This document shows positions 4,963 to 20,604 of a stretch of DNA of 44,733 nucleotides, piece by piece. How positions within the stretch are numbered: position 1 is the stretch's first letter; every line of letters starts with the position of its first letter. The notes below the pieces were generated by a model. It was given only the letters and a program-made list of their open reading frames with translations, made no database searches and had not been told where the DNA came from. The position numbers and the translations under genes were made by a program. The DNA lies in the NCBI GenBank assembly GCA_029245025.1, contig JAQWQC010000008.1, positions 1 through 44,733 of the forward strand, read 5' to 3'. This stretch comes from Rhodospirillaceae bacterium (GTDB taxonomy: Bacteria; Pseudomonadota; Alphaproteobacteria; Rhodospirillales; Rhodospirillaceae).

Positions 4963-5724
4963 TTAAAGGTAGAATTCAGTAAACGTGCCGTCTGCCAGGT
5001 GCTGACGAAGCGTGTTTTGCAAATCGAACGTGTTCTCATGGGTTAGGGCTAGCTCTGTTGCTGTGCCCAGGGTTTCACCGGATGTAAGGGCGCGGAGCCA
5101 TATCAATGTTTCCAATGGTACAACGCGCTGCATCACTGTGTGAGCCGGGCGCAATACAAACCCGCTTTCGGGATGCGAGAAGTCGACCTCAGGTACACGA
5201 TCCTGATCTGGCTGATTGACGTGCCATATGGTGAAAATAGGGACGTCGGATTCAAGCAATCGAAGGGTCGGGGATACTGAAAACTTTATGTCAGCTATCT
5301 GTTCCGCCGGAACCTCAGCTAATCTTTCAGGGTTCAGGGCGGCGCTGTCGGCGGCAAAATAAGCTTCGACCCGGGTCCATTCCAGGCGTGCAACGTCGGG
5401 CAGATATGGCAAATCATTGGCGGGTGCAAAAGAACTAATAAAATCTGGCAACACGTCGCCATACCGAAACAGGGCCGGCTGTTGTGGCGGATGGGTTGTG
5501 ATGAAGTCCTTCGCTAAGGCCTGAAAGAATCGATCTCCGACTATGCGCTGAATTACTGGATAGGCAGCAGATAAAACATCGATCAAGCTGTTCAGAGTAT
5601 TGGCATGGTAAACACCCAATCGGCGTTCTATGGCACCGCGCGGTGTGGCAACATGTGGCAGCAAGGCCTCCACCGAATTGGTCAAGGCAACGTCTGCGAA
5701 GCTTTTCTGAAGGTCATGCAACAC
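4963..5724 (-). CDS. bufC: BufC-like DUF2063 protein, bufferin maturation partner
   Basis: This 253-residue protein has the DUF2063 N-terminal layout (LQKSFADV, then RRLGVYHANTLNSLIDVLSAAYP and FFQALAKDFITTHPP) and a less conserved C-terminal half. Family knowledge: DUF2063 proteins pair with DUF692 (MNIO) enzymes and are thought to deliver the precursor peptide, acting as the recognition subunit. The start ATG 5724 lies 11 bases inside the upstream MNIO gene, so the two are translationally coupled. The order precursor, MNIO, DUF2063 on the minus strand is the core bufferin operon. Nothing in the sequence shows truncation. Function as BufC is inferred from the family and the locus. Confidence 0.87.
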   Translation of the reverse strand: MLHDLQKSFADVALTNSVEALLPHVATPRGAIERRLGVYHANTLNSLIDVLSAAYPVIQRIVGDRFFQALAKDFITTHPPQQPALFRYGDVLPDFISSFAPANDLPYLPDVARLEWTRVEAYFAADSAALNPERLAEVPAEQIADIKFSVSPTLRLLESDVPIFTIWHVNQPDQDRVPEVDFSHPESGFVLRPAHTVMQRVVPLETLIWLRALTSGETLGTATELALTHENTFDLQNTLRQHLADGTFTEFYL

Positions 5725-6619
5725 GGGATGAGCCTTCAGATGAAGAGACCGAATCGATGTGACGCTGCGCGGTCTCAGCTTCGCCTAAGAGGACCTCAAG
5801 GTCAGGGATGTCTGTGTCCCACTCGATCAAAGTTGGTCGTGGTCCGAGTTTTTCCAACGCCAGCTGATATAGAGACCAAACTGGATCTGCGACGTTGTCT
5901 CCATGGGTATCAATTAAAAGACGATCTTCTCCATCCCCTTCTAAGGAGTGGCCGGCGAGGTGAATTTCACCCACGGCGTCTCCTGGGATTCCGTCGAGAT
6001 AGGCGGTCGTATCAAACCCGTTGTTTTCCGCGCTGACATAAATGTTGTTGACATCGAGCAGCAGTCCGCAGCCGGTTCTTTGGGATAGCGCGGTTAAAAA
6101 GTCCCACTCGGTCAAAACTGAGTCCACGAACGTCAGATAGGAGGATGGATTTTCAACCAGTATTTGCTGTCCTAAGCGCTCCTGAGTCTGGTCCACGTTT
6201 TGGGCAACAGTGACTAGAGCCTCTTCGGTGTAGGGAAGTGGCAGTAAGTCGTTCACGTATATGTCGTCGACAACGCTAAAAGATAGGTGTTCGGATACCA
6301 GCCCAGGCTCGAAGCGATCGACCAGGGTGCGCAACGTAGAGAGATGGTCCGCGTCAACGCCCTGCGCAGACCCTAACGATAAACCAACACCGTGGCAGCT
6401 GATCGCATAATGCTCACGCACTTGCTCTAGTTGCGCTATGCGTGGTCCACCAGCGGCAAAAAAATTCTCGCTATGGATTTCTACCCATGCCGCTGACGGC
6501 GTTCCAGACGCGAAATCAGACATGTGAGGATGACGAAGCCCGACTCCTGCTCGCGCAGAAATCGGGCCTGGCCGTACAGAGCGTGTCGAAGGCTGGTCCT
6601 GGGGAGGGGGAGAGGTCAC
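5714..6619 (-). CDS. bufB: BufB-like MNIO (DUF692) multinuclear iron oxidative enzyme
   Basis: A 301-residue DUF692/MNIO protein with a TIM-barrel pattern of metal ligands in order: GVGLRHPH, EIHSENFF, SCHGVGLSLGS, EHLSFS, LLDVNNIYVSAENNG, GEIHLAGHS, DTHGDNV and IEWDTDIP. These His/Asp/Glu/Asn clusters hold the multinuclear iron centre in the family. MNIO enzymes modify cysteines in peptide precursors; in bufferins they produce thiooxazole-type groups that bind metal. The annotated start is GTG 6617-6619, 35 bases after the precursor stop. The first about 24 residues are Pro/Ser/Arg-rich and not conserved in the family, and the Shine-Dalgarno is poor, so the true start could be further in. 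It overlaps the DUF2063 gene by 11 bases. Confidence 0.9.
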   Translation of the reverse strand: MTSPPPQDQPSTRSVRPGPISARAGVGLRHPHMSDFASGTPSAAWVEIHSENFFAAGGPRIAQLEQVREHYAISCHGVGLSLGSAQGVDADHLSTLRTLVDRFEPGLVSEHLSFSVVDDIYVNDLLPLPYTEEALVTVAQNVDQTQERLGQQILVENPSSYLTFVDSVLTEWDFLTALSQRTGCGLLLDVNNIYVSAENNGFDTTAYLDGIPGDAVGEIHLAGHSLEGDGEDRLLIDTHGDNVADPVWSLYQLALEKLGPRPTLIEWDTDIPDLEVLLGEAETAQRHIDSVSSSEGSSRVA

Positions 6620-6650
6620 CTTCGACGCTCGGTCAAAACGAAGGGTCGGC

Positions 6651-6956
6651 TTAGCCGGCCTTCATCTTGGCTTCTTCGTTTACGCCTTCGCCGGGCTCAA
6701 GATTGCCGCCCATTTCAACGCAGGTGCCTTCAGCAACAAGTTTCCATTCGCCTTTGTCGAATGCCACCGTGGATTGCCCCGCGCAGGAATGTGTTCCCGC
6801 CGCATTGGCGCATCCGTTCTCACCAGCTTTGGCGACGCCGTAGCATTTTTCTTTTCCGGCGGCTGACGCTGTCGAAGGAACAGTCATGGCGGCCATTGAA
6901 ACCGCACCGGCAACGGCGGCGGCAAGTGAAAGCGTAGAGAGCTTGCTGTCTGACAT
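6651..6956 (-). CDS. bufA1: Bufferin precursor peptide (BufA1, DUF2282), secreted cysteine-containing RiPP
   Basis: The product (about 101 residues) has a Sec-type signal peptide: SKLS, a hydrophobic alanine-rich core, then ASAAG at the likely cleavage site. The mature part has four conserved cysteines in KCYGVAKAGENGC, THSCAG and EGTCVEMGG, the DUF2282 signature. Family knowledge: BufA1 peptides are modified by the MNIO/DUF2063 pair and bind and buffer copper-like metals outside the cytoplasm. Start ATG 6956 is chosen because GGAG sits 7 bases upstream; an ATG four codons earlier lacks this. The enzyme genes follow directly on the same strand, and a palindromic upstream region may control expression. 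No DoxX-type BufD gene is visible. Confidence 0.9.
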   Translation of the reverse strand: MSDSKLSTLSLAAAVAGAVSMAAMTVPSTASAAGKEKCYGVAKAGENGCANAAGTHSCAGQSTVAFDKGEWKLVAEGTCVEMGGNLEPGEGVNEEAKMKAG

Positions 6957-7031
6957 AGTGTACTCCATCTATGGTGCCGCAAAGGCGCGGCCTGAAAAGG
7001 GGTCTCCTGATCGACGGGTGCTTAGTGACCC

Positions 7032-9823: not shown

Positions 9824-11557
9824 ATGTCCTCACCAACCCCTACCAAAAATACCAGCTTGCCAAAAAGATTGGCAGATTTTCCAACTCTTCCAGACGCTCT
9901 TGATTATGCGGCGCAGGGAGAAACCGGGTTTAATTTTTACTCTTCGCGGGGTCATTTAAACGAGGTTTTGCCGTTCGCTGATTTGAGGACAAAAGCCCGG
10001 GACGTGGCCAGAAACCTCTGTGGCGCAGGCGTTGTGTCCGGTGACCGTGTTGCACTTCTTGCAGAAACGGCACCTGCGTTTCTCATCGCTTTTTTTGCTT
10101 GCCAATATGCTGGTGCTATTCCGGTGCCAATGCCCACGCCTGTCGCGTTTGGCCGGCGCGATGCATATGTTGGCCAAATTCGCAACCAAATCACTTCATC
10201 TGGCGCGGTCATGGTGATTACGCCGTTGGAATTTATGCCCTTTGTTAAAGAGGCTGCTGACGGACTAGATTTGTTATTGGTCGGGACTTTAGATGATCTC
10301 AGGGCGCAGCCGCAGGCTGATGACCTTAATACTGGCGGGCCCGATGATCTCTGCTATCTGCAATACAGTTCTGGAAGTACGCGGTTTCCAAAAGGTGTTG
10401 CGGTAACTCACGACAACCTTATGGCCAATTGTACTGCTATGAACGTGGCGGTCAACGTATCAACTGAGGATCGGGGTGTATCTTGGTTGCCGTTTTACCA
10501 TGACATGGGTTTGGTGGGTTTCATGCTCGGTTGCCTCACCTCTCAAACAACTGTCGACTTTATTCCAACGGAAGAATTCGCTCGTCGCCCGCTCGCATGG
10601 CTCCGGGTCATCAGCGAGAACCGAGGTACGATGTCCTACGGCCCTAGTTTTGGGTACGAGCTATGTTGTCGAAGATTCTCATCATCAAATGCTGCTGCGC
10701 CTAACCTAGATTTATCCAGCTGGCGAGTTGCTGGGATAGGCGGTGAGATGATTAAGCCGCAGGTCATGCGCGCGTTTGCAAAAGTATTTAAGTCGTGTGG
10801 GTTTGCAGATAAGGCCTTTAACGCATCATATGGCTTAGCCGAATGCGTGCTTGGTGTCAGTTTTAGTACGCCAGGACATGGCATGTTGCTTGACCATATT
10901 TCCAAGCAGGAGTTAGGGGGTGACCATCGGGCAGTTCCGATTGATGACGATGGATCGGGAACCGGTCGTACCTTTGTGGCCTGTGGTGTCGTGATTGACG
11001 GTCATACGGTCGAGATTCGAGACGACGATGGTGCGGTTATGGCAGAACGGGAAATTGGCCGCGTCTTTTTCTCTGGCCCAAGCGTCATGCAGGGATACTT
11101 CGGTGATCAAGAAGCAACGGATGCTTGCCTTCAAGATGGGTGGCTGGATACGGGCGATCTCGGGTATTTCTGGGGAGACCAGTTAGTTATTGTTGGGCGA
11201 TCAAAAGATATGATGATCGTTAATGGCCGTAATTATTGGCCGCAGGATATTGAATGGACCGTTGAACATATGGACGGCATGCGGTCTGGCGATGCCGCGG
11301 CATTCACTCTTGAGCAAGACGACGGTAGTGAAAAACCAACCATACTGGTGCAATGTAGACCATCTGCTGCTGACATTCGCGAGGCATTGGTAGATAACGT
11401 GCGCTCACGTGTCCAGAATCAAGTTGGATTGGCGTGTGACGTAATTTTGGTTCCGCCGCGAACCTTGCCGAAAACGTCATCTGGGAAATTAGCGCGTGGC
11501 AAGACCAAGGCGAACTTTCTCAGCGGCGAAATCCAGCCCTTAGCCGCGGGCGCGTAG
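9824..11557 (+). CDS. Fatty acyl-AMP ligase / acyl-ACP synthetase of the sphingolipid locus (AcsR-like)
   Basis: A 577-residue ANL enzyme of the fatty acyl-AMP ligase group. Motifs include LQYSSGSTRFPKGVAVTH (about 179-196), WLPFYHDMGLVG, ASYGLAEC, DTGDLGYFWGDQLVIVGRSK and GRNYWPQDIEW; YHDMGL and NYWPQDIE are typical of FAALs, which usually load acyl groups on carrier proteins rather than CoA. The A10 lysine is in LPKTSSGKLARGK. In Caulobacter-type loci an acyl-CoA/ACP synthetase sits next to ceramide reductase, acyl carrier protein and serine palmitoyltransferase, the same set and order as here. Its likely job is to load a fatty acid onto the ACP at 12617. Start ATG 9824 has no strong Shine-Dalgarno. 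The next gene follows by 10 bases. Confidence 0.88.
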   Translation: MSSPTPTKNTSLPKRLADFPTLPDALDYAAQGETGFNFYSSRGHLNEVLPFADLRTKARDVARNLCGAGVVSGDRVALLAETAPAFLIAFFACQYAGAIPVPMPTPVAFGRRDAYVGQIRNQITSSGAVMVITPLEFMPFVKEAADGLDLLLVGTLDDLRAQPQADDLNTGGPDDLCYLQYSSGSTRFPKGVAVTHDNLMANCTAMNVAVNVSTEDRGVSWLPFYHDMGLVGFMLGCLTSQTTVDFIPTEEFARRPLAWLRVISENRGTMSYGPSFGYELCCRRFSSSNAAAPNLDLSSWRVAGIGGEMIKPQVMRAFAKVFKSCGFADKAFNASYGLAECVLGVSFSTPGHGMLLDHISKQELGGDHRAVPIDDDGSGTGRTFVACGVVIDGHTVEIRDDDGAVMAEREIGRVFFSGPSVMQGYFGDQEATDACLQDGWLDTGDLGYFWGDQLVIVGRSKDMMIVNGRNYWPQDIEWTVEHMDGMRSGDAAAFTLEQDDGSEKPTILVQCRPSAADIREALVDNVRSRVQNQVGLACDVILVPPRTLPKTSSGKLARGKTKANFLSGEIQPLAAGA

Positions 11558-11567
11558 CGCACTGGCC

Positions 11568-12512
11568 GTGACCGACCCACTGACCATCGCAATCACAGGT
11601 GCTACCGGATTTCTCGGTGGTCACCTAGTGGCGCAAGCACGGAGTGCTGGCCACCGTGTTCGTGCCTTGTCACGCAAGCCGGTGAACACTGACTCTAACC
11701 AAGATATCGTATGGATCACTGGCGCATTGAACGAACAAGCCGCGCTTGAGGCTTTAGTTACCGGTGCGGATATTGTGGTGCATGCGGCGGGAGCGATCAA
11801 AGCGCTGTCTCGATTTGAATTTTTTCAAATCAATAAGGGGGGAACAGAGGCCGTTGTTCGTGCTGCGTGTGCCCAAGGGGTGAAAAGCTTTGTGTTGATC
11901 TCGTCTCTGGCCGCGCGCGAACCAACCTTGTCACCCTATGCGGCAAGTAAACGAGCTGCGGAGTTGGTGGTTGATGACCACGCCGGTCAGTTGAACTCGA
12001 TCATACTTCGCCCGCCTGCCATATATGGACCAGGCGATGAGGAGACTATGGGCCTGTTCCAGATGGCTGTGAATGGATTCATGCTCGCCCCTGGGCATTC
12101 CTCGGCACGATTATCATTGGTTCATGTTAGCGATGTCGCCTCAGCTATTTTGGCGTGTTGTGAACAGCCCCAATCCGAGGTCCTTTTTGAAATCGATGAT
12201 GGCAAAGCTGACGGATACCAATGGCGCGAACTGGCAGATGCCGCAGGTCTGTGTGTCGGTCGCCCAATTAAATTTGCTCACTTAGCGAGCACTGTTGTCT
12301 GGATTATGGGGTTTCTGGGCACGTCAAAGGGTTTGCTGACCCGATCGCCCGCTATGTTGACATTGGCGAAAGTGCCAGAGCTTCGCCATCGTGACTGGGT
12401 GGCGAACGCCAAGTGTCCATCTGGCTGGACCCCAAAGTGGTCTCTAAAAGACGGCTTTAAAGACGCAATCGATTGGTATTCCTCACAAAATGTTTTGAAA
12501 CGTTACTTTTAA
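11568..12512 (+). CDS. cerR: Extended SDR, ceramide (3-keto) reductase-like
   Basis: A 314-residue extended short-chain dehydrogenase. The nucleotide-binding motif is TGATGFLGG (residues 10-18), the HAAG motif follows at about 72, and the catalytic Tyr124/Lys128 pair is in SPYAASK with an upstream VLISS serine. ILRPPAIYGPGD is the extended-SDR substrate motif. GTG start at 11568, 10 bases after the acyl ligase. In Caulobacter an epimerase-like SDR in the same position (CerR) reduces the 3-keto group after N-acylation. The neighbours here are the same kinds of genes, so that role is the best inference. The C-terminal 60 residues contain a hydrophobic stretch (VVWIMGFLG) that may touch the membrane. 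Confidence 0.85.
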   Translation: MTDPLTIAITGATGFLGGHLVAQARSAGHRVRALSRKPVNTDSNQDIVWITGALNEQAALEALVTGADIVVHAAGAIKALSRFEFFQINKGGTEAVVRAACAQGVKSFVLISSLAAREPTLSPYAASKRAAELVVDDHAGQLNSIILRPPAIYGPGDEETMGLFQMAVNGFMLAPGHSSARLSLVHVSDVASAILACCEQPQSEVLFEIDDGKADGYQWRELADAAGLCVGRPIKFAHLASTVVWIMGFLGTSKGLLTRSPAMLTLAKVPELRHRDWVANAKCPSGWTPKWSLKDGFKDAIDWYSSQNVLKRYF

Positions 12513-12616
12513 AGTTACTTGTCACTCTTCTGTCACACATCTTAAGACTAAGACGGAAGAGGAGCGGGATGTGAGACTCAGGACGTCAACTGTCCCCATA
12601 TTGAAGGGCAAAATAA

Positions 12617-12889
12617 ATGTCGGCTGAGCCTAGCGAAGGCGCGTCGCAAGACGTACGAGCTGCGGTTCTGGAGGTTTTGCAAACTTTCAATAAGACCAGC
12701 GTGAACCTTGAGGATGGGACTCGGTTTACGGAAGACCTGAATTTCGACTCACTTTTGGTTATGGAGTTCATCGCAGCTCTTGAGGACCGTCTGGATATAT
12801 CGGTGCCGCTAAACGTGCTCCCAGATATCGAAACCGTGGGGCAATTGGTGGTCGCGACCGAACAAATTGTTAGGGAAGAATATGGCTGA
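12617..12889 (+). CDS. acpR: Dedicated acyl carrier protein of the sphingolipid locus
   Basis: A 90-residue acyl carrier protein. The phosphopantetheine serine is Ser45 in LNFDSLLVMEFIAALE, a variant of the DSL motif, and the helix-rich length is right for a PP-binding domain. GAAGGG lies 8-9 bases before ATG 12617. The last bases of the gene (ATGGCTGA) overlap the start of the next gene, so the two are coupled. Sphingolipid loci in Alphaproteobacteria carry such a dedicated ACP beside serine palmitoyltransferase, which can use acyl-ACP instead of acyl-CoA. A 104-base gap from the upstream reductase contains direct TGTCAC repeats (about 12520-12537) but no clear promoter. Confidence 0.92.
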   Translation: MSAEPSEGASQDVRAAVLEVLQTFNKTSVNLEDGTRFTEDLNFDSLLVMEFIAALEDRLDISVPLNVLPDIETVGQLVVATEQIVREEYG

Positions 12890-14114
12890 CTTATTTGATC
12901 GATTTGAGTCACTGTTGGCACGCCGAGACTCTTTAGTCGGCGATGGGGGTCGCGATCCGTTTCAAGTTGAGATGGATGAAGTGCTGTCACAGACCGAAGC
13001 CATGATCGGCAATCGTCGCATCATCTTGGCCGGCACCAACAATTATCTTGGACTGACGTTTGCGCCAGAGTCATTGCAAGCCGCACATGATGCTCTTGAT
13101 GCGGCAGGTACGGGCACCACTGGCAGTCGTGTCGCCAACGGCACTTATAGTGGTCACAAGGCATTGGAGCAGGCGTTGTGTTCCTTTCTTGGTAAGGACC
13201 ACGCCATCGTTTTCTCAACCGGTTATTTGGCCAACCTCAGTGTCTTGTCGACGTTGGTCGGTCCTGAAGATTACATCCTTATGGATGCAGATTGTCACGC
13301 AAGCATTTATGATGGCGTGAGAATGGGTGACGCTCAGATCATTCGATTTAAGCACAACGATGCGGCGGATTTAGATAAACGCTTGGCGCGCCTCGCGAAG
13401 AAGCCGGGCAACAAGCTGATAGTCATCGAAGGTATTTATTCCATGCTTGGGGATAAGGCTCCCTTGGACGAGATCGTTGCTGTTAAGAAAAAATACGAAA
13501 ACGTATATCTTCTTAGTGATGAAGCGCATTCGCTCGGGGTTCTCGGTCGTTATGGTCGGGGATTGCCAGAGGAAGCCGACCTAGAAGACGATGTTGATTT
13601 TATTGTTGGCACTTTCTCCAAGAGTGTCGGTACCGTTGGCGGTTTTTGTGTTTCCAGCCATCCACAGTTTGATTTGCTGCGTTTAGCTTGTCGTCCATAC
13701 ATCTTCACAGCCTCTTTGCCGCCATCTGTTGTGGCGTCCGCCAAAGCGTCTCTAGAGTTAGTTGAAAAAGGTGGCGCGCTGCGCAAACGATTGATTCGTA
13801 ATGCGGAGCGACTTCATTCAGGGCTCTCTGCTCTCGGCTTTACGCTTGGAGGAGAAGTAAGCCCGGTGGTTGCTGTAGTGGCTCCGGAGGTGGAAATCGG
13901 TGTGGCGTTTTGGCGCGGACTGATTGACGGTGGCGTTTACGTCAACCTTGCCCTTCCTCCCGCCACGCCACAGAACTTTACGTTGTTGCGGTGTAGTCTC
14001 TGTGCGGCTCACACGACTGAGCAGGTTGACCACATCATCGAAGTCTTTGCAGAGGTGGCCGACTCTTTGGGCATACTGCCGGAGCAACCTAAGAAGAAAG
14101 TCGCGCTCGGCTAA
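12882..14114 (+). CDS. spt: Serine palmitoyltransferase-like alpha-oxoamine synthase
   Basis: A 410-residue PLP enzyme of the alpha-oxoamine synthase family (KBL/BioF/ALAS/SPT). The PLP lysine is Lys247 in GTFSKSVG; the pyridine-binding Asp and His are in LLSDEAHSLG (about 211-220), and the stacking His139 is in DADCHASIYDG. The family signature GTGTTGSRVANGTYSGHKALE is at about 76-96 (in two overlapping halves). These motifs alone do not separate SPT from BioF or KBL. The adjoining ACP, acyl-ACP ligase, SDR, lipid kinase and ceramide-synthase-like genes make serine (or another amino acid) plus acyl-ACP to 3-keto-sphinganine the most likely reaction. ATG 12882 overlaps the ACP stop; AGGGAAGAAT precedes it. 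It converges on the next gene with a 21-base gap. Confidence 0.9.
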   Translation: MADLFDRFESLLARRDSLVGDGGRDPFQVEMDEVLSQTEAMIGNRRIILAGTNNYLGLTFAPESLQAAHDALDAAGTGTTGSRVANGTYSGHKALEQALCSFLGKDHAIVFSTGYLANLSVLSTLVGPEDYILMDADCHASIYDGVRMGDAQIIRFKHNDAADLDKRLARLAKKPGNKLIVIEGIYSMLGDKAPLDEIVAVKKKYENVYLLSDEAHSLGVLGRYGRGLPEEADLEDDVDFIVGTFSKSVGTVGGFCVSSHPQFDLLRLACRPYIFTASLPPSVVASAKASLELVEKGGALRKRLIRNAERLHSGLSALGFTLGGEVSPVVAVVAPEVEIGVAFWRGLIDGGVYVNLALPPATPQNFTLLRCSLCAAHTTEQVDHIIEVFAEVADSLGILPEQPKKKVALG

Positions 14115-14135
14115 CATCGTTCGTGGACTGTAAGT

Positions 14136-15038
14136 TTAGTTCAGCCCCCCCCGCTGTTTCACTCGGAATAACAAGCGTAGACCAGTGAGAACCGGGTGCG
14201 CGCGATCCCGTTCTGTCAGTTCGACCGTCACGCCGGTATGGCGTTCAATCTTCCAAGCCGCATAGTCCAGGCCACCGCGGAATGTGAAAGCGGCTTTGAT
14301 TAGACGTAAAACGTTGAGAAACCGCCCCCAACAGCGTCGTGCACGCCAAGCCCAAACCGCGCCTGTATCTGGTTTCGCTTCTGCCGTTTGATCTAGGCCA
14401 AGCATTTCAATGGCGGCTGCGCCAATGCGAATGAATCTATCACGTTGGTTGTTCACCAACGCTTTCGCTTTAGACGGCAGCTCAGGCCGGAGTTCCGCAC
14501 GGTAGGTTTCTTGAAAGGCGGTGGTCCATAAGTCTTCAATCGCATAGGGACCGGCCATCAGCGGTGCCGTTTTGCTAAGGAGTGTTGTCACAGCGCGCGC
14601 CAGAGCGTATTCAACAGTCGCGCAGGCGACGTCATCATTGGCGTAAACAATGGTGGCTGGCTGTGCAAAGCGGGCCCATAGGGCTGATGCAAAGCAGGTC
14701 TCCGCTGTGCCGTGGGCAAAACCACCGAGAGTCATTACTGCGACTTTGGCGCGGACTACCCGCCCGTCGAAGTCGCACTCGTGATAATAGACATTGGGTG
14801 GCAACAGCGCACCAAAGGTGGCGCTGATCGGATTTTTAATTGCGTCTCTCAGGTTGTCAACTAACACGTAGAAGTCGAGTATCAAGTTTTCGTCCGTGCC
14901 GAGGCGAAGGCAGGACCCATAAAACACAACAGCGCGCACGCCGCTTCCATAGGTATTTTTTAGATGATCGACCATTGTCGTTGCGGCGGGAAAGGCTGCG
15001 ACCTGGCTTTCAGATTGAATAAGTGAGATGAGAGCCAT
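14136..15038 (-). CDS. Tam41-like nucleotidyltransferase, candidate CDP-ceramide or CDP-lipid synthase
   Basis: About 300 residues. Read against my memory of mitochondrial Tam41 (CTP:phosphatidate cytidylyltransferase), blocks line up in order. VVFYGSCLRLG matches the YGSG motif, LDFYVLVD the IDLIFGV metal site, and NVYYHE the VYFNPF block. RAKVAVMTLGGF matches KYGVVSMETL, ALWARFAQPATIVY matches FYLAGRLQKPV, and AFQETYRAELRPE matches ALSYAGDIR. The second acidic residue of the usual D-x-D pair is Tyr here. The start ATG 15038 follows the lipid kinase stop (TAG 15041-15043) by two bases, so the genes are coupled. A kinase plus a Tam41-like enzyme suggests ceramide-1-phosphate to CDP-ceramide, which is inference. 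A link to the Cpg ceramide-phosphoglycerate genes of Caulobacter is likely. Confidence 0.7.
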   Translation of the reverse strand: MALISLIQSESQVAAFPAATTMVDHLKNTYGSGVRAVVFYGSCLRLGTDENLILDFYVLVDNLRDAIKNPISATFGALLPPNVYYHECDFDGRVVRAKVAVMTLGGFAHGTAETCFASALWARFAQPATIVYANDDVACATVEYALARAVTTLLSKTAPLMAGPYAIEDLWTTAFQETYRAELRPELPSKAKALVNNQRDRFIRIGAAAIEMLGLDQTAEAKPDTGAVWAWRARRCWGRFLNVLRLIKAAFTFRGGLDYAAWKIERHTGVTVELTERDRAHPVLTGLRLLFRVKQRGGLN

Positions 15039-15040
15039 GG

Positions 15041-16075
15041 CTACCACCGCACAAAGCGAAGTGTTTGATGGCCATTAATGGTGAGTGGATTGTCCTCGCT
15101 GGCATTGTAAAGTTCGCCATCAAGCGTGTAGCTGCCGTCGAAGGTTAGGGTGACGGAGGTGGTGCGCCGAACCGTCCGCTTGTTGCTTTGTTTTAGTCGG
15201 CGTCTCAGCATATTAGGGACGGTCGAGAGGACTGCGCCTGCGCCTGGTCGAAGACTGATGTAATGGACCGGGCCATCACCAACTTTCGGATCGGGGCGCG
15301 TGCCTAGAAGCATTTTGTCCATGGTGGTTGCCATCACGACATAGAAGCGCCCGTCTTGTTGCCACCTACCCTGTTCGCCGGTCACTTTGATGGTTCCGCC
15401 TTGTTTGCCACCCGTCATTGCACGCCAGAACAAGATGGCCACTGCAGCTACATGAGATACTGTATTTGGCCAACCGCGGGGGTAAATGTTTTTACGGCAG
15501 TAAAGAATGCCTTCAACCACATCGGCCCCACCGAAGAATGCGCCGTGGCGCGTCGGCACCCCCTCTTGGTGCAGCGTAAGTACGGACTGAGTGTGAATGG
15601 CATTGGCCAGGTTGCCGTTGGCATTCTTTCTGAGTAGAGCTGTGAGGGCTTTGCGCCGATCTCCAGACAGGCTCCAGGCGGTTGCTGTCATATTCGTTTT
15701 CCCTGACGGCAGCAACGCCAAGACCGGTGGGGAGGTGTATGGGGCATGGTTGAGGAGGCCAGAGAACACCAACCCGGCGGTGCCGTCTCCGCCATCGACC
15801 ACGAGGGTTTCAATCTCACTGGCAGCACATTTGGCAAGAATCGCAGGCACATCGGTGATTTTATCGATGATGAAATGTTGAACACAGTCATGAGAGGCCA
15901 CAATATCGTTCAGCCACCCGCGGTCTTGTTGATTGCGGGTGCTCATGTGATTACTGAGAATGGCGACCGTTGGTGGGGGCAAATCGCAGGACCTGAGACA
16001 GATGAAGAGACGCTCTACTATGCTTACATAATGTTTCAAAAGCTTTGATTTGACGATCTTGTACTTGGTCGCCAT
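15041..16075 (-). CDS. Diacylglycerol-kinase-fold lipid kinase, likely ceramide kinase (CpgB-like)
   Basis: A 344-residue DAGK_cat-family protein. The nucleotide motif GGDGT is at about residues 95-99 in LVVDGGDGTAGLVFSG, and LLPSGKTNMTA at about 121-131 is the matching second block (usual form P-x-G-T-x-N). The C-terminal domain ends with DGSYTLDGELYNAS. Family members phosphorylate diacylglycerol, sphingosine or ceramide. In Caulobacter a kinase of this family in the sphingolipid locus (CpgB) phosphorylates ceramide, and the neighbours here support the same. The start is uncertain. ATG 16075 adds about 30 residues before the conserved PPTVAILSNH and would overlap the divergent region; a TTG just before it is possible. 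The Tam41-like gene follows immediately. Confidence 0.83.
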   Translation of the reverse strand: MATKYKIVKSKLLKHYVSIVERLFICLRSCDLPPPTVAILSNHMSTRNQQDRGWLNDIVASHDCVQHFIIDKITDVPAILAKCAASEIETLVVDGGDGTAGLVFSGLLNHAPYTSPPVLALLPSGKTNMTATAWSLSGDRRKALTALLRKNANGNLANAIHTQSVLTLHQEGVPTRHGAFFGGADVVEGILYCRKNIYPRGWPNTVSHVAAVAILFWRAMTGGKQGGTIKVTGEQGRWQQDGRFYVVMATTMDKMLLGTRPDPKVGDGPVHYISLRPGAGAVLSTVPNMLRRRLKQSNKRTVRRTTSVTLTFDGSYTLDGELYNASEDNPLTINGHQTLRFVRW

Positions 16076-16193
16076 GCTGGGCTCGCTTGGAGAAATCCCT
16101 CAAAAGTGTCTTGAAAACGGGCCTAGAGGGCGACTGAGCGCTGACTCAGGGACCCAAAGGATGGCCGCTGCAAATGTGGTGGCTTCGAGATGG

Positions 16194-17438
16194 ATGTTCA
16201 AAGCTCTCGACCTCTACCTCTTGCGGCAGATCATGCCGACACTGCTCGTCACCCTACTGGTTGCAGCTATAATTTTGCTGCTCGAGCGGATGTTGCGGCT
16301 GCTCGATATAGCCGTGGGCAATGGTGTCTCGACCTTGGTAGTGTTTCAGATGCTCTTTAATCTGATTCCCCACTACATCGGTTTGGCGCTGCCCGCCGCT
16401 TTGTTTCTCGGGGTTCTGCTGGCGTTCCGCAAGCTTTCGTCTCAATCTGAACTAGATGCGATTCAATCGTCAGGAATTGGTTTAAGCCGACTCATCCGGT
16501 GGGCCGTAATCTTGGGGCTCTTGATGATGATCTTTAATCTGATTCTTGTCGGCTACCTGCAACCGATCAGCCGCTACGCCTATCGTGCTCTTTTGTTCAA
16601 TGTGACCAGCGGTGTTTTAGAGTCTGGTATTGGCGAGGGCGTGTTTATGGACCTTCCCAATGGTTACACCCTGCGGGTTGAAGAATCTCGGGGCGCCGGT
16701 CGTGAGCTGTATGGAGTCTTTGCCCATCAACAAAAAGAAGATGGCACCATCATCACGTTAACTGCAGAGCGAGGGCGTCTTGTCACAGGTGGCGCGGAGC
16801 GTGCAACCAGGCTCCGTTTATTTCAAGGCAATCGATCAGAGTGGTCGCCGGGCGCAACCTCGGCCGACACAGTAAGCTTCGATGTGTTTGACTGGCCTCT
16901 AAATCTACAAGATCTGATTCGGTTCCGCGTGAGGGGCGGTGATGAACGCGAGTTGACCTTGGATGAACTGTTGCGGGGTTATGTCGCCAATATAAAGGCA
17001 GAAAGCACTGGCATCAGACCTGTGGTTGTGAACAACCCACAATACAGTCCTGAGCGACTGGTGCCAGCGGCTGCGGTTGCGGCGGAGCTCCATGGGCGTA
17101 TTGTTTTTTCGCTATCAATTTTGTTCTTGCCGATGCTGGCGGCCCCACTCGGCGTTATGACCCACAGGGCGAGCAAATCTTTTGGACTGGTTCTCGGCCT
17201 ATTAACTTTGGTCGTCTATCACAAGATTCTGGAGTTTAGTGAAGCCTACGCAACGGTCGGGGGCATATCGGCCGGGCCAGCCTTATGGGTGCCCTTTGCT
17301 CTCTTTATTGGCGGGACATCATATCTTTTTCTCAGGACCGAAGCTGTCGCTGGGGCAACCCCAATGCAACGGCTCGAAGGCCGATGGACCAATATGACCG
17401 GCGTTCTCATTCGACTATTCCGCGGCAGCCACGATTAG
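16194..17438 (+). CDS. lptF: LptF/YjgP-family permease (first of the pair)
   Basis: About 414 residues from ATG 16194 (GAG 5-7 bases before). An upstream frame from TTG 16050 adds 48 residues that look unlike the family; the natural family start is MFKALDLYLLRQIMPT. Topology is that of LptF/LptG: three N-terminal membrane segments (about residues 12-120), a periplasmic beta-jellyroll domain (about 130-290), then three C-terminal membrane segments from HGRIVFSLSILFLPML. Family knowledge: LptF and LptG form the permease of the LptB2FGC lipopolysaccharide extractor. This copy lies inside a sphingolipid locus, divergent from the lipid kinase. It could be the cell's LPS exporter or a second pair devoted to anionic sphingolipid. 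LptA, LptB and LptC are not in view. Confidence 0.88.
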   Translation: MFKALDLYLLRQIMPTLLVTLLVAAIILLLERMLRLLDIAVGNGVSTLVVFQMLFNLIPHYIGLALPAALFLGVLLAFRKLSSQSELDAIQSSGIGLSRLIRWAVILGLLMMIFNLILVGYLQPISRYAYRALLFNVTSGVLESGIGEGVFMDLPNGYTLRVEESRGAGRELYGVFAHQQKEDGTIITLTAERGRLVTGGAERATRLRLFQGNRSEWSPGATSADTVSFDVFDWPLNLQDLIRFRVRGGDERELTLDELLRGYVANIKAESTGIRPVVVNNPQYSPERLVPAAAVAAELHGRIVFSLSILFLPMLAAPLGVMTHRASKSFGLVLGLLTLVVYHKILEFSEAYATVGGISAGPALWVPFALFIGGTSYLFLRTEAVAGATPMQRLEGRWTNMTGVLIRLFRGSHD

Positions 17439-17450
17439 TAGTCTGTACTC

Positions 17451-18521
17451 ATGATTTTATCTTGGTATCTCACGAAGGCCTACCTGTCGCGATTCTTCGC
17501 ATTGCTGCTGGGCTTGGTCGTATTTCTGCAAATGCTCGACCTGCTGGCCAATGCGGATTCTGTGTTGGAAGGTGGCGGTGACCCGCTCGACTCATTAACG
17601 CGCTACATCGTGTTGCGGGTGCCGTCGATCATTGAAACCGTTGCACCATTGGCTGCGTTGCTCGGCGGGCTAACGGCGCTGGTTGTTCTGGCCCGCAACA
17701 GCGAGATCATTGCTATGCGTGCGGCAGGCCGGTCTGTGCTTAGTCTAGTCGGTGGCCTAGTGGTCGTTGGTATTGCGTTGGCACTAATGCTGTTTGTCTT
17801 CTCCGACGGTATAGTCGTACGTTTTAACGCACAGCTCGAGGATTGGAAAAGCACAGGCTACAAGCCTGGCGGTGAAATCATTGATGGCAGTGAAGCGTGG
17901 GTGATTGAAGGTGACACCATCATCCGGGTTGGGCACGTCCTGCAGAACGGCGCCGTGCTCAATGACATTCGCTTGTTTCACCAAGGCGACAAAGCGGCGG
18001 TCTCAGACATTATTAATATTCGTCTCGCGATTTGGGAAGATGCTGGTTGGAACTTATTTGAGGTGGCGCGTGTCGGTGGTAACGCTGTCGCAACCCATTT
18101 AGGTCAACCGACGTGGGAAACAAATCTTACACCTGAAGATTTTAACAAGCTTGCCAATCCACCCAGTGAATTGACCTTCGACGAACTAGAGCATTACGTG
18201 CGCGAGCTCGCTCTTGGGACCCGTCCCGAATACTATTACGACACATGGCTACAACGAAAACTGGCTGGACCGGCGGTTTTGGCTCTGATGCCCTTGCTAG
18301 CCGCTATCGCGGCTTTTGCCCACCACCGTCAAGGCAGCGCGATCATGGTTGTGGTCTATGGGATCTCGCTCGGTTTCGTTTTCATCATCACAGACAATAT
18401 TTTACTGGCGATGGGGCAGTTCGGCGCTCTGCCACCGGTTGTGGCGGCCTGGCTGCCTTTGGCGCTGTTCGGCACCATAGGTCTGTGGATTGTGGTAAAC
18501 TTAGAAAACAGAGGCGCTTGA
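17451..18521 (+). CDS. lptG: LptG/YjgQ-family permease (second of the pair)
   Basis: A 356-residue partner of the preceding gene, 12 bases downstream. It has the same six-segment layout: N-terminal segments (FALLLGLVVFLQMLDLL; the IIETVAPLAALLGGLTALVV block near residue 70; VLSLVGGLVVVGIALALML), a periplasmic jellyroll domain (about 125-265), then three C-terminal segments starting at GPAVLALMPLLAAIAAF. NSEIIAMRAAGRS in the first cytoplasmic loop is the LptB coupling-helix region. The length is typical of LptG. As for its partner, the sphingolipid neighbourhood raises the question of substrate. No frameshift or missing segment was seen. Confidence 0.9.
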   Translation: MILSWYLTKAYLSRFFALLLGLVVFLQMLDLLANADSVLEGGGDPLDSLTRYIVLRVPSIIETVAPLAALLGGLTALVVLARNSEIIAMRAAGRSVLSLVGGLVVVGIALALMLFVFSDGIVVRFNAQLEDWKSTGYKPGGEIIDGSEAWVIEGDTIIRVGHVLQNGAVLNDIRLFHQGDKAAVSDIINIRLAIWEDAGWNLFEVARVGGNAVATHLGQPTWETNLTPEDFNKLANPPSELTFDELEHYVRELALGTRPEYYYDTWLQRKLAGPAVLALMPLLAAIAAFAHHRQGSAIMVVVYGISLGFVFIITDNILLAMGQFGALPPVVAAWLPLALFGTIGLWIVVNLENRGA

Positions 18522-18608
18522 TCATCTACCTGATTTAGTCAGGGGCTTGCGTTTATGCCAAACCGCGTTAGATAAAATTGTATAAAGCGCTACAAATAAG
18601 GAAAGAAC

Positions 18609-19424
18609 ATGGCATTAAAGATCGGCTTTTGGTCCGACCGGGAATACCACTTAGACCGAATGAATCTAGGTGATCTCGCTGCTGCGTACTTTCAGTATTA
18701 CGCCATTGCCGCGTATTTCGCGTTGGCTGCGGTGACAGGCGCCTATGCGACTTGGGCTTGGATGAACGGTCTCGCGACCCTGACTGGAATTGCGGGCGCC
18801 GTTGTCGCGACAATTCTGATTTATCCATTGGTTTGGTATGTGTTGCACCGGTGGATTCTGCATTCCAAGTGGATGTGGAGATCCAAGCTTACCGCACCGG
18901 TCTGGAAGCGCATTCACTACGATCATCATTCCGACCCCAATAACCTCAAGGTTTTGTTCGGTGCTCTCTATACGACCTTGCCAACCGTCGCTTTGGCTAC
19001 GGTCCCTGTCGGATTTGCTCTGGCTGGTTGGCCTGGTGCTGCTGCGGCTTTAAGCGCAGGTGTACTGCAAACGTGTTTCTACGAGTTTATCCATTGCATT
19101 CAGCACTTGGGGTATGTCCCCGAATGGGGCTGGGTCAAGAGTATGAAGAGGCTGCATATGGCCCACCACTTTCATAACGAGACGGGTAATTTCGGGATTA
19201 CTAATTATTTGTGGGATCGCGTGCTCGGAACGAAGTACGAGCAAATTAAATTTCGACCCCGGTCAGAAACGGTGTTTAACCTTGGGTACGATGAAGAGGT
19301 GGCAAAGCATTATCCCTATGTGGCCGAGTTAACGCCTAACTGGCCGCATACTGCTAATCCGGTTCATCGTCAGCGTGAATATGCGCAAAAGTCTGACGAT
19401 GGCGAACTCGCCCCCTCATCCTAA
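18609..19424 (+). CDS. Fatty-acid hydroxylase / sterol desaturase family membrane enzyme
   Basis: A 271-residue membrane protein with the eight-histidine pattern of the family: HRWILH (H80, H85), HYDHH (H103, H106, H107), FIHCIQH (H162, H166) and HMAHHFHNE (H183, H186, H187, H189). At least four hydrophobic segments surround them. Such enzymes use a di-iron centre to hydroxylate or desaturate lipids; eukaryotic relatives include sphingoid-base C4 hydroxylase and fatty-acid 2-hydroxylase. Its place between LptG and the ceramide-synthase-like gene suggests it modifies the sphingoid base or the amide-linked acyl chain. Which carbon is attacked cannot be told. AAGGA precedes ATG 18609 by about 8 bases. 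The next gene follows after 28 bases. Confidence 0.86.
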   Translation: MALKIGFWSDREYHLDRMNLGDLAAAYFQYYAIAAYFALAAVTGAYATWAWMNGLATLTGIAGAVVATILIYPLVWYVLHRWILHSKWMWRSKLTAPVWKRIHYDHHSDPNNLKVLFGALYTTLPTVALATVPVGFALAGWPGAAAALSAGVLQTCFYEFIHCIQHLGYVPEWGWVKSMKRLHMAHHFHNETGNFGITNYLWDRVLGTKYEQIKFRPRSETVFNLGYDEEVAKHYPYVAELTPNWPHTANPVHRQREYAQKSDDGELAPSS

Positions 19425-19452
19425 CCGGGCCTAACTAGTCGCAGCGTTTTTT

Positions 19453-20604
19453 ATGACAGCATCAGACATTACTGTTCGGCCGGTCGCCACGCGTGCGGAT
19501 CAGGAAGCTTTCTTGGCGTTGCCAGACGCCTTGTTCAGCGATGATCCAGTGTGGGTGCCGCCGTTGAGAATGATGGTGCGGGACCAATTGAACCCAAAGA
19601 AGAATCCCTGGTTCAGTCACGGCGAAGCACAGTTATTTCTGGCCGAACGTAATGGCGCAGTGCTGGGACGAATCTCAGCCCAGGTCGACCGCAGTCATCT
19701 CGAGCAACACAATGATGCGACCGGCTTCTTTGGCTTTTTTGACAGTGTGGATGAGCAACCTGTTGCAGACGCGTTGTTTGCGGCAGCTGGGAGTTGGCTG
19801 AAGGAGCGGAGCATGTCCCGCGTTCGTGGGCCATTCAGCCTTAACATCAATGAAGAATCCGGATTATTGGTCGAAGGTTTCAAAAGTCCACCGCGTGTCG
19901 CCATGGGCCATGGTCACCCATTTTACCAGAAACTGGTGGAAAAAGCTGGGTTTGAGAAAGTACGCGACCTATTCGCGTTCCTAACGCCCATGGATAACGC
20001 GCTGCCCTATAAACATATGAAGTTGTTGCAACGCTTCATTGACCGTAACCCGGGGCTCACGTTCCGCCATCTCGATCTCAATCACTACGACGACGACATT
20101 CGCATTCTCGTTGACCTGTTCAATGAAGCCTGGGCTGAAAATTGGGGGTTTATTCCCCTAACAGAAGCGGATGCCCAGCATATGGCTAATCAGTTCAAAA
20201 TGATCCTAATTCCAGAGTTGGTCTGGTTTGCGTTCTACGAAGGAAAACCGGCCGCAATGGCCGTGGCGTTGCCTGACCTCAACGAAATGATCCGCGATCT
20301 CGGCGGTAACTTGTGGCCTAAGGGATGGATGAAGCTGGCGTGGCGGGTTCTCACCCGCCGCGCCTGGTCATCTGGGACGCGGGTTCCACTCATGGGCGTT
20401 GCCGCGCGTTTTAAAAACAAACCCCTTGGATCGGTGTTGGCCTTTATGGTGATGGGCGCGATCCGTCGTGAATCTCTTAAACTTAATATGCCGATCTGTG
20501 AAATGAGTTGGGTGCTGGAAAACAACACCCAAACCCGCCGGTCTCTCGAAACCATCGGCGGCCTAGTCTACAAAACCTACCGGATATACGAAAAAGTGCT
20601 GTAA
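19453..20604 (+). CDS. bcerS: GNAT-fold N-acyltransferase resembling bacterial ceramide synthase
   Basis: A 383-residue protein with two GNAT-like halves. The first contains DDPVWVPPLRMMVRDQLNPK and FLAERNGAVLGRISAQVD; the middle has GPFSLNINEESGLLVEGF and GHPFYQKLVEKAGFEKVRDL; the C-terminus carries CEMSWVLENNTQTRRSLETI then GGLVYKTYRIYEK. I recognise this as the family of the Caulobacter bacterial ceramide synthase (bCerS), which N-acylates the 3-keto sphingoid base. The presence of all the other sphingolipid enzymes within 10 kb supports that reading. The reaction is inferred from family and locus. Start ATG 19453 has a weak ribosome site (GCAGCG). A 79-base gap then separates it from the next operon. 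Confidence 0.85.
   Translation: MTASDITVRPVATRADQEAFLALPDALFSDDPVWVPPLRMMVRDQLNPKKNPWFSHGEAQLFLAERNGAVLGRISAQVDRSHLEQHNDATGFFGFFDSVDEQPVADALFAAAGSWLKERSMSRVRGPFSLNINEESGLLVEGFKSPPRVAMGHGHPFYQKLVEKAGFEKVRDLFAFLTPMDNALPYKHMKLLQRFIDRNPGLTFRHLDLNHYDDDIRILVDLFNEAWAENWGFIPLTEADAQHMANQFKMILIPELVWFAFYEGKPAAMAVALPDLNEMIRDLGGNLWPKGWMKLAWRVLTRRAWSSGTRVPLMGVAARFKNKPLGSVLAFMVMGAIRRESLKLNMPICEMSWVLENNTQTRRSLETIGGLVYKTYRIYEKVL

Follow-up and report, generated by a model that had tools for sequence, protein, structure and literature searches.

Ceramide loci of Caulobacter, Escherichia coli and the window

In Caulobacter crescentus, five genes are reported to make ceramide, and CC_1160 (CpgB) and CC_1161 (CpgC) are needed for ceramide phosphoglycerate (CPG) (PMC11324152). 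CpgB is described as a ceramide kinase (PMC10331486), CpgC carries a CDP-diacylglycerol (CDP-DAG) synthase-type domain (PMC11324152), and CpgD (CC_1152) is described as a phosphoglycerate cytidylyltransferase (PMC12275187). Efficient formation of CPG2 requires CC_1159, CC_1158, CC_1153, and CC_1152, and LptC2, LptF2, and LptG2 together with a flippase are the proposed transporters (PMC11324152). In Escherichia coli BL21, the serine palmitoyltransferase (SPT), AcpR, and AasR have been studied (PMC9386255). According to PMC11087976, no flippase or transporter for sphingolipid transit to the outer membrane has been identified. Here, we describe a locus at positions 9,824 to 20,604 of a 44,733-nt stretch of DNA (the window, that is, the whole stretch analyzed: positions 1–44,733, forward strand, of contig JAQWQC010000008.1, assembly GCA_029245025.1) from a Rhodospirillaceae bacterium. 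It is the known Rhodobacterial ceramide locus (PMC9386255, PMC11324152) in a variant make-up, and its genes very probably make and decorate, and probably export, a ceramide-type outer-membrane lipid.

All ten open reading frames (ORFs) that the initial annotation had placed within 10.8 kb are present, and eight of the ten proteins match curated families in Pfam or NCBIfam. The Tam41-like gene and the kinase gene lie on the minus strand and the other eight on the plus strand. The upstream quartet encodes an AasR-type fatty acyl-AMP ligase/acyl-ACP synthetase (9824–11557, +; PRK09192, 781 bits against a cutoff of 600), a CerR-type ceramide reductase of the epimerase/dehydratase family, NAD-dependent epimerase-type (11568–12512, +; PF01370, E 3.4e-29), an AcpR-type dedicated acyl carrier protein (ACP; 12617–12889, +; PF00550 (PP-binding), E 3.1e-9), and Spt (12882–14114, +), whose ATG start at 12882 overlaps acpR by 8 bases. 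Identity to the corresponding BL21 proteins is 53% for SPT, 44% for AasR, 39% for CerS (YghO), 36% over 66 aa for AcpR, and 33% for CerR.

Placement of the alpha-oxoamine synthase (AOS) gene among BioF or KBL, together with neighbors not conserved in relatives, had been named beforehand as the outcome that would overturn the sphingolipid assignment; the phylogeny groups it with SPTs. In a maximum-likelihood tree of 55 proteins, the window enzyme falls in a 100/100 clade with the SPTs of E. coli BL21, Nitrosomonas, and Alphaproteobacteria, and E. coli BioF and Kbl lie outside this clade; several outer branches of the tree are long and unsurely placed. Scored against the SPT equivalog NF047599, the enzyme reaches 622 bits, over the cutoff of 500. 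Its best sequence match in the PDB is the SPT 2x8u (503 bits), whereas KBL reaches 227 bits at most and BioF-only entries 179 bits. An operon for another product, built around BioF, KBL, or a further AOS enzyme, is nevertheless conceivable in principle: AOS enzymes have one fold in common, and the BioF model (315 bits) and two KBL models (310 and 279 bits) do match. Those scores lie under the models' own cutoffs (426, 460, and 493, respectively), whereas the SPT score is over its own, and the neighbors are a dedicated ACP, CerR, and CerS. We therefore consider such an operon extremely improbable, and identity as BioF or KBL was rejected on cutoffs, PDB ranking, and tree.

Two proteins, the Tam41-like protein (14136–15047, −) and CerS (19453–20604, +), have no Pfam or NCBIfam match at E ≤ 0.001, and sequence searches of the PDB with CerS and with the Tam41-like profile returned no useful relative. 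Predicted folds bore out the earlier guesses for both. The AlphaFold model of the Tam41-like protein (22 sequences; mean predicted local distance difference test score, pLDDT, 91.7) has as its best PDB match the mitochondrial CDP-DAG synthase Tam41 (6ig2; E 9.3e-8, probability 1.00, template modeling score 0.47/0.50), but at a root-mean-square deviation of 9.3. The CerS model (15 sequences; mean pLDDT 81.5) matches tandem GNAT proteins (7q3a, E 2.8e-14), consistent with a bacterial ceramide synthase. We assign the Tam41-like protein as a CpgC-type cytidylyltransferase. Among 61 relatives assessed, SPT is over the model cutoff in 16, and the CpgC-type profile A1 found matches in 15 of these 16 SPT-positive genomes and in none of the four SPT-negative relatives tested. 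The adjoining gene (15041–16075, −) encodes a CpgB-type ceramide (lipid) kinase (PF00781 (DAGK_cat), E 2e-11) with a GGDGT motif in its translation. Kinase and CpgC-type genes are paired in 23/23 loci that have room and carry either. PADLOC gave no match for the Tam41-like protein or the kinase.

Between lptG2 and cerS lies a gene for an SCS7/FA2H-family protein (18609–19424, +; PF04116 (FA_hydroxylase), E 7.8e-21), whose sole PDB sequence relatives below E 1e-5 are yeast SCS7 (4zr0, 4.2e-9; 4zr1, 3e-8). It is present in 25 of the 35 related loci that extend far enough and in 12 of 20 further loci from class genomes picked for high SPT score, adjoining cerS in all 12. For C. crescentus, PMC11324152 proposes hydroxylation by a DesA-family enzyme encoded elsewhere (CC_0202), and a term search of its main text finds no other hydroxylase named. 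The SCS7-family enzyme is a cluster-encoded candidate ceramide hydroxylase, in contrast to the DesA-type enzyme proposed for Caulobacter. Hydroxylation is more likely on the amide-linked acyl chain than on the base, two positions that sequence alone cannot distinguish.

The remaining two genes encode second Lpt permeases, LptF2 (16197–17438, +; PF03739, E 9.6e-73) and LptG2 (17451–18521, +; TIGR04408, 271 bits against a cutoff of 240). The LptF2 start is most likely ATG 16197; the mechanical ORF start, TTG 16050, falls within the divergent kinase gene. The genome encodes five LptF/LptG homologues: the window pair, an LptF beside LptD (contig C10), an LptG (C22), and an LptF (C26). A housekeeping role for the window pair was rejected because the LptF beside LptD and the LptG on C22 exist elsewhere, and in trees LptF2 and LptG2 form clades separate from housekeeping LptF and LptG. 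Wholesale replacement of lipopolysaccharide (LPS) by sphingolipids was rejected because LpxC and LptD are present; LPS is therefore probably made. No second LptC is annotated in the window cluster, and a genome-wide search for one was not made.

Conserved neighborhood and proposed ceramide pathway

A scan with the window SPT as reference, at one genome per species, gave 76 loci with an SPT relative, of which 46 (L009–L054) enter the synteny counts; in the excluded loci (L055–L084), SPT-like genes are solitary or beside one or two weak neighbors. Where the sequence extends 3 kb or more upstream (37 loci), AasR, CerR, and AcpR each accompany SPT in 35. Where it extends 7.5 kb or more downstream (35 loci), we found the Tam41-like gene in 23, the kinase in 23, LptF2 in 19, LptG2 in 23, the hydroxylase in 25, and CerS in 26. 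Of the 28 loci with enough flanking sequence in both directions, 13 contain all nine SPT partners. Because the partner genes recur with SPT in related loci, the arrangement is not due to chance, and the gene order recurs across many alphaproteobacterial genomes. The neighbor conservation for which the initial annotation had proposed a check thus holds in relatives, and, together with the SPT score and tree, it supports the sphingolipid reading. Many of the loci come from metagenome-assembled genomes (MAGs) labeled Rhodospirillaceae, Alphaproteobacteria, or "Candidatus Marinimicrobia"; the last label is probably wrong, judging from the SPT tree. A whole-locus search of plasmids gave no match.

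Several individual loci from the scan stand apart. The SPT of L009 is identical to that of the window; its MAG, A_MB309, carries two cluster copies on different contigs (L009 and L040, with SPTs 100% and 92% identical to the window's), which may reflect a mixed-strain bin or a real duplication. In Caulobacter sp. 602-1, the matching SPT-like gene (L047:9884–11212) stands alone and is distinct from the CC_1162 cluster; the 21 kb around it contain no partner gene of the window set. Among L059, L060, and L069, loci from Ignavibacteria and Acidobacteria place SPT with CerR- and CerS-like neighbors, and a Syntrophobacteraceae locus places it with a CerS-like neighbor; at 28 to 36% identity to the window CerR or CerS, these neighbors suggest that ceramide loci may also occur in distant phyla or otherwise beyond Pseudomonadota.

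By analogy with characterized relatives, from which we draw the enzymatic steps, the localization, and the product, AasR would adenylate a free fatty acid and load it onto AcpR, and Spt would condense acyl-AcpR with serine to 3-ketosphinganine. CerS would then N-acylate 3-ketosphinganine, CerR would reduce the ketone, and the SCS7-like enzyme would add a hydroxyl group. The CpgB-type kinase would form ceramide 1-phosphate, on which the Tam41-like CpgC would use CTP in a CDP-ceramide-type activation; the CpgC product may be CDP-ceramide or the result of direct glycerate joining. Finally, LptF2 and LptG2, with a shared LptB, would extract the product, which would then travel to the outer membrane.

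Several points weigh against parts of this pathway. The AOS enzyme reaches the betaproteobacterial SPT equivalog but stays under the cutoff of the alphaproteobacterial one (529 of 670 bits), and LptF2 falls 0.4 bit short of the TIGR04407 cutoff (229.6 against 230). The kinase is 22 to 31% identical to its counterparts in other class genomes, and even the Caulobacter CpgC still awaits proof of its activity (PMC11324152). The likeness to Caulobacter, including that of the DAGK_cat kinase and the Tam41-fold protein to CpgB and CpgC, was judged by published gene content and gene type, and the source organism is uncultured.

In its gene content, the window locus resembles the C. crescentus CC_1152–CC_1168 region, which also has aasR-cerR-acpR-spt, followed by CpgC- and CpgB-type genes and after these by LptF2-LptG2 and CerS (PMC11324152). 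It differs in carrying CpgC and the kinase on the opposite strand and in its hydroxylase gene, an addition to the Caulobacter set. It differs further in that its cluster lacks genes of the CpgA, CpgD, CC_1153, and CC_1158 types (the last two types were not searched genome-wide). The description of the locus as nearly complete consequently stands for ceramide synthesis, phosphorylation, and the inner-membrane permeases and fails for the final headgroup. In E. coli BL21(DE3) (NC_012971; PMC9386255), the genes for CerS (YghO), AasR, CerR, AcpR, SPT, and an LptF/LptG pair likewise neighbor one another. Unlike the window, the BL21 neighborhood has no kinase, Tam41-like protein, or hydroxylase annotated, and its LptF/LptG pair is placed elsewhere in the tree.

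A CpgA profile run genome-wide matched only an inositol-type transferase (E 5.2e-7), whereas the positive controls G058 and G271 gave E < 1e-180. Among SPT-positive relatives, G310 and G318, both cassette-free, carry CpgA-like genes (E < 1e-100), and G312 a divergent one (E 6.5e-23). The final headgroup probably differs from that of the Caulobacter CPG2 pathway, with a second locus as its supplier.

An inositol cassette at a second locus

On contig C26 (locus L142), the third LptF gene, lptF3, is divergent from genes for an inositol-phosphate synthase (MIPS, PF01658), a nucleotidyltransferase, a CDP-alcohol transferase, and a Wzx-like flippase. The best NCBIfam model for the nucleotidyltransferase is inositol-1-phosphate cytidylyltransferase/DIPP synthase (IPCT), at 125.9 bits over residues 1–236, a score far below the cutoff of this two-domain model. 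In the PDB, its top-ranking relatives are 4jd0, 2xme, and 4mnd. CpgD-like proteins from three other clusters reach 49 to 67 bits on the IPCT model and prefer a sugar nucleotidyltransferase model. A plain CpgD orthologue was therefore rejected for C26; the enzyme is a CpgD relative that scores as IPCT. The transferase is one of three CDP-alcohol transferases in the genome, beside PgsA (C10; 157 bits, cutoff 109) and a PssA-type enzyme (C34; 106.9 bits, cutoff 107). C26 holds the three genes of a CDP-inositol-dependent inositol-lipid cassette: MIPS, a CDP-inositol-type cytidylyltransferase, and a CDP-alcohol transferase.

Related cassettes bear on this assignment. In G312 and G246, a single protein (608 and 625 aa) combines MIPS and cytidylyltransferase, a fusion that connects the cytidylyltransferase with inositol phosphate. 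In the G295 cassette, the synthase comes from another subfamily (22% identity): the function is retained and the gene replaced. Adjoining this cassette, L199:10708–11490 encodes an Asp_Arg_Hydrox (PF05118) protein, of a family that includes the lipid A acyl hydroxylase LpxO. The G293 copy (L202:6764–9893) is decayed, with MIPS and transferase in pieces and no cytidylyltransferase match; its LptF3 and flippase genes are still long ORFs.

A similar gene set has been proposed in Bacteroidetes. PMC9246714 proposes an alternative cluster with MIPS, an NTP transferase proposed to make CDP-inositol, and a CDP-alcohol transferase, all three as at C26, plus a HAD hydrolase that is the proposed phosphoinositol dihydroceramide (PI-DHC) synthase. 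Where this cluster has the HAD hydrolase, the C26 surroundings show an LptF paralogue and a Wzx-like flippase. The C26 transferase gives tblastn matches of 21 to 30% identity to Bacteroidota transferases; of five matches on Bacteroidota plasmids, the two examined lie in such gene surroundings. The same source reports from Novosphingobium acidiphilum a lipid consistent with PI-dihydroceramide in the absence of both known clusters (PMC9246714). On a Sphingomonas parapaucimobilis plasmid, we observed a trio of CDP-alcohol transferase, inositol-3-phosphate synthase (MIPS), and NTP transferase genes (L229:8974–11641), a candidate set of inositol-type headgroup genes in sphingomonads. No alphaproteobacterial gene set for inositol sphingolipids is described in the titles and abstracts searched, a search outside which most subscription papers fall.

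Cassette, sphingolipid locus, and flanking genes

Strong matches to the C26 transferase, taken as the mark of the cassette, occur in 9 of the 16 SPT-positive relatives (including the decayed G293 copy) and in 0 of 45 SPT-negative ones (Fisher p 6.6e-7; 4.4e-6 excluding G293). Hits counted as true have E 2.2e-16 or lower, and those to generic CDP-alcohol transferases have E 2.9e-11 or higher, a cut placed post hoc with the gap already seen; loosened to E ≤ 0.001, the search matches 47 of 61 genomes. Counted by genus, all three cassette genera fall within the 8 SPT genera of 47 (p 0.0035). In a wider class sample of 289 genomes, the transferase occurs in two, our own and G246, both among the 40 with an SPT-model match at E ≤ 1e-100.

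The second locus suggests that the headgroup contains inositol, and it yields a flippase and a permease as candidate partners in exporting the sphingolipid. A two-locus system by which the bacterium completes an inositol-phosphorylated ceramide and exports it is a tentative proposal, which we place just short of an even chance. The window cluster would make and hydroxylate ceramide; on C26, MIPS would make inositol phosphate, and IPCT would activate it as CDP-inositol. The inositol-type transferase InoPT, replacing CpgD/CpgA, would transfer phosphoinositol to ceramide or its phosphorylated form, the Wzx-like flippase would flip the product, and LptF3, an alternative permease pairing with LptG2, would export it.

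Alternatively, the window may hold an ordinary Caulobacter-type phosphosphingolipid locus ending at CPG, with the C26 cassette unrelated and serving an inositol glycerolipid, a soluble di-inositol phosphate, or LPS or exopolysaccharide decoration. This is a real possibility, though one we hold at somewhat under an even chance. In Caulobacter, the pair CpgB and CpgC is by genetic evidence enough for CPG (PMC11324152), the cassette lies on another contig of the genome, and LPS, a possible target of decoration, is probably made. The restriction of the cassette to SPT-positive relatives speaks against it, as do the LptF3 proteins, which, those of G295 and G317 included, form a 100/99 clade nested in the LptF2 clade (100/100) and separate from housekeeping LptF. 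The SPT clusters of G295 and G317 contain LptG2 and lack LptF2, and each genome encodes four LptF/LptG homologues; the fourth is the LptF at the inositol locus (L199 and L200), the only spare LptF to pair with LptG2. In G246, the inositol genes stand within the SPT cluster itself, on two contigs that both end within SPT: one has SPT, hydroxylase, and CerS and then the fused MIPS-cytidylyltransferase gene, and the other has the transferase flanked by AasR and an LptG-LptF pair. In the tree, this LptF/LptG pair is placed with that of the BL21 cluster and apart from LptF2/LptG2. G312 has SPT and the inositol genes, and CpgC was not found in its genome.

Against an inositol-phosphorylated ceramide, six of the nine cassette genomes belong to one genus, and the G246-type in-cluster arrangement is seen in one genome only, with the transferase in one of five genomes of its family. 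Seven of the 16 SPT-positive relatives have no cassette, including G294, of the same genus, with a full sphingolipid cluster; the cassette is therefore not needed for the core lipid. No HAD hydrolase was recognized among ORFs of at least 130 aa in 14 kb around the C26 cassette, a search not extended genome-wide, and the Parabacteroides NTP transferase, unlike that of C26, has no match to the IPCT model at E 1e-8.

Comparative genomics here gives LptF2/LptG2, LptF3, and the linked flippase as candidates for sphingolipid export to the outer membrane. The two loci also outline how Alphaproteobacteria might make inositol sphingolipids; if this candidate route is true, it would supply a gene set for the class that includes the PI-dihydroceramide-like lipid of N. 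acidiphilum (PMC9246714).

Upstream of the sphingolipid genes, window positions 4963–6968 encode a DUF2063 protein, an MbnB/TglH/ChrH-type enzyme that modifies ribosomally synthesized and post-translationally modified peptides (RiPPs), and a DUF2282 protein, a possible RiPP operon. Homologues occur in 26, 27, and 25, respectively, of 71 clustered sequences (window included), and this possible operon thus often accompanies the locus.

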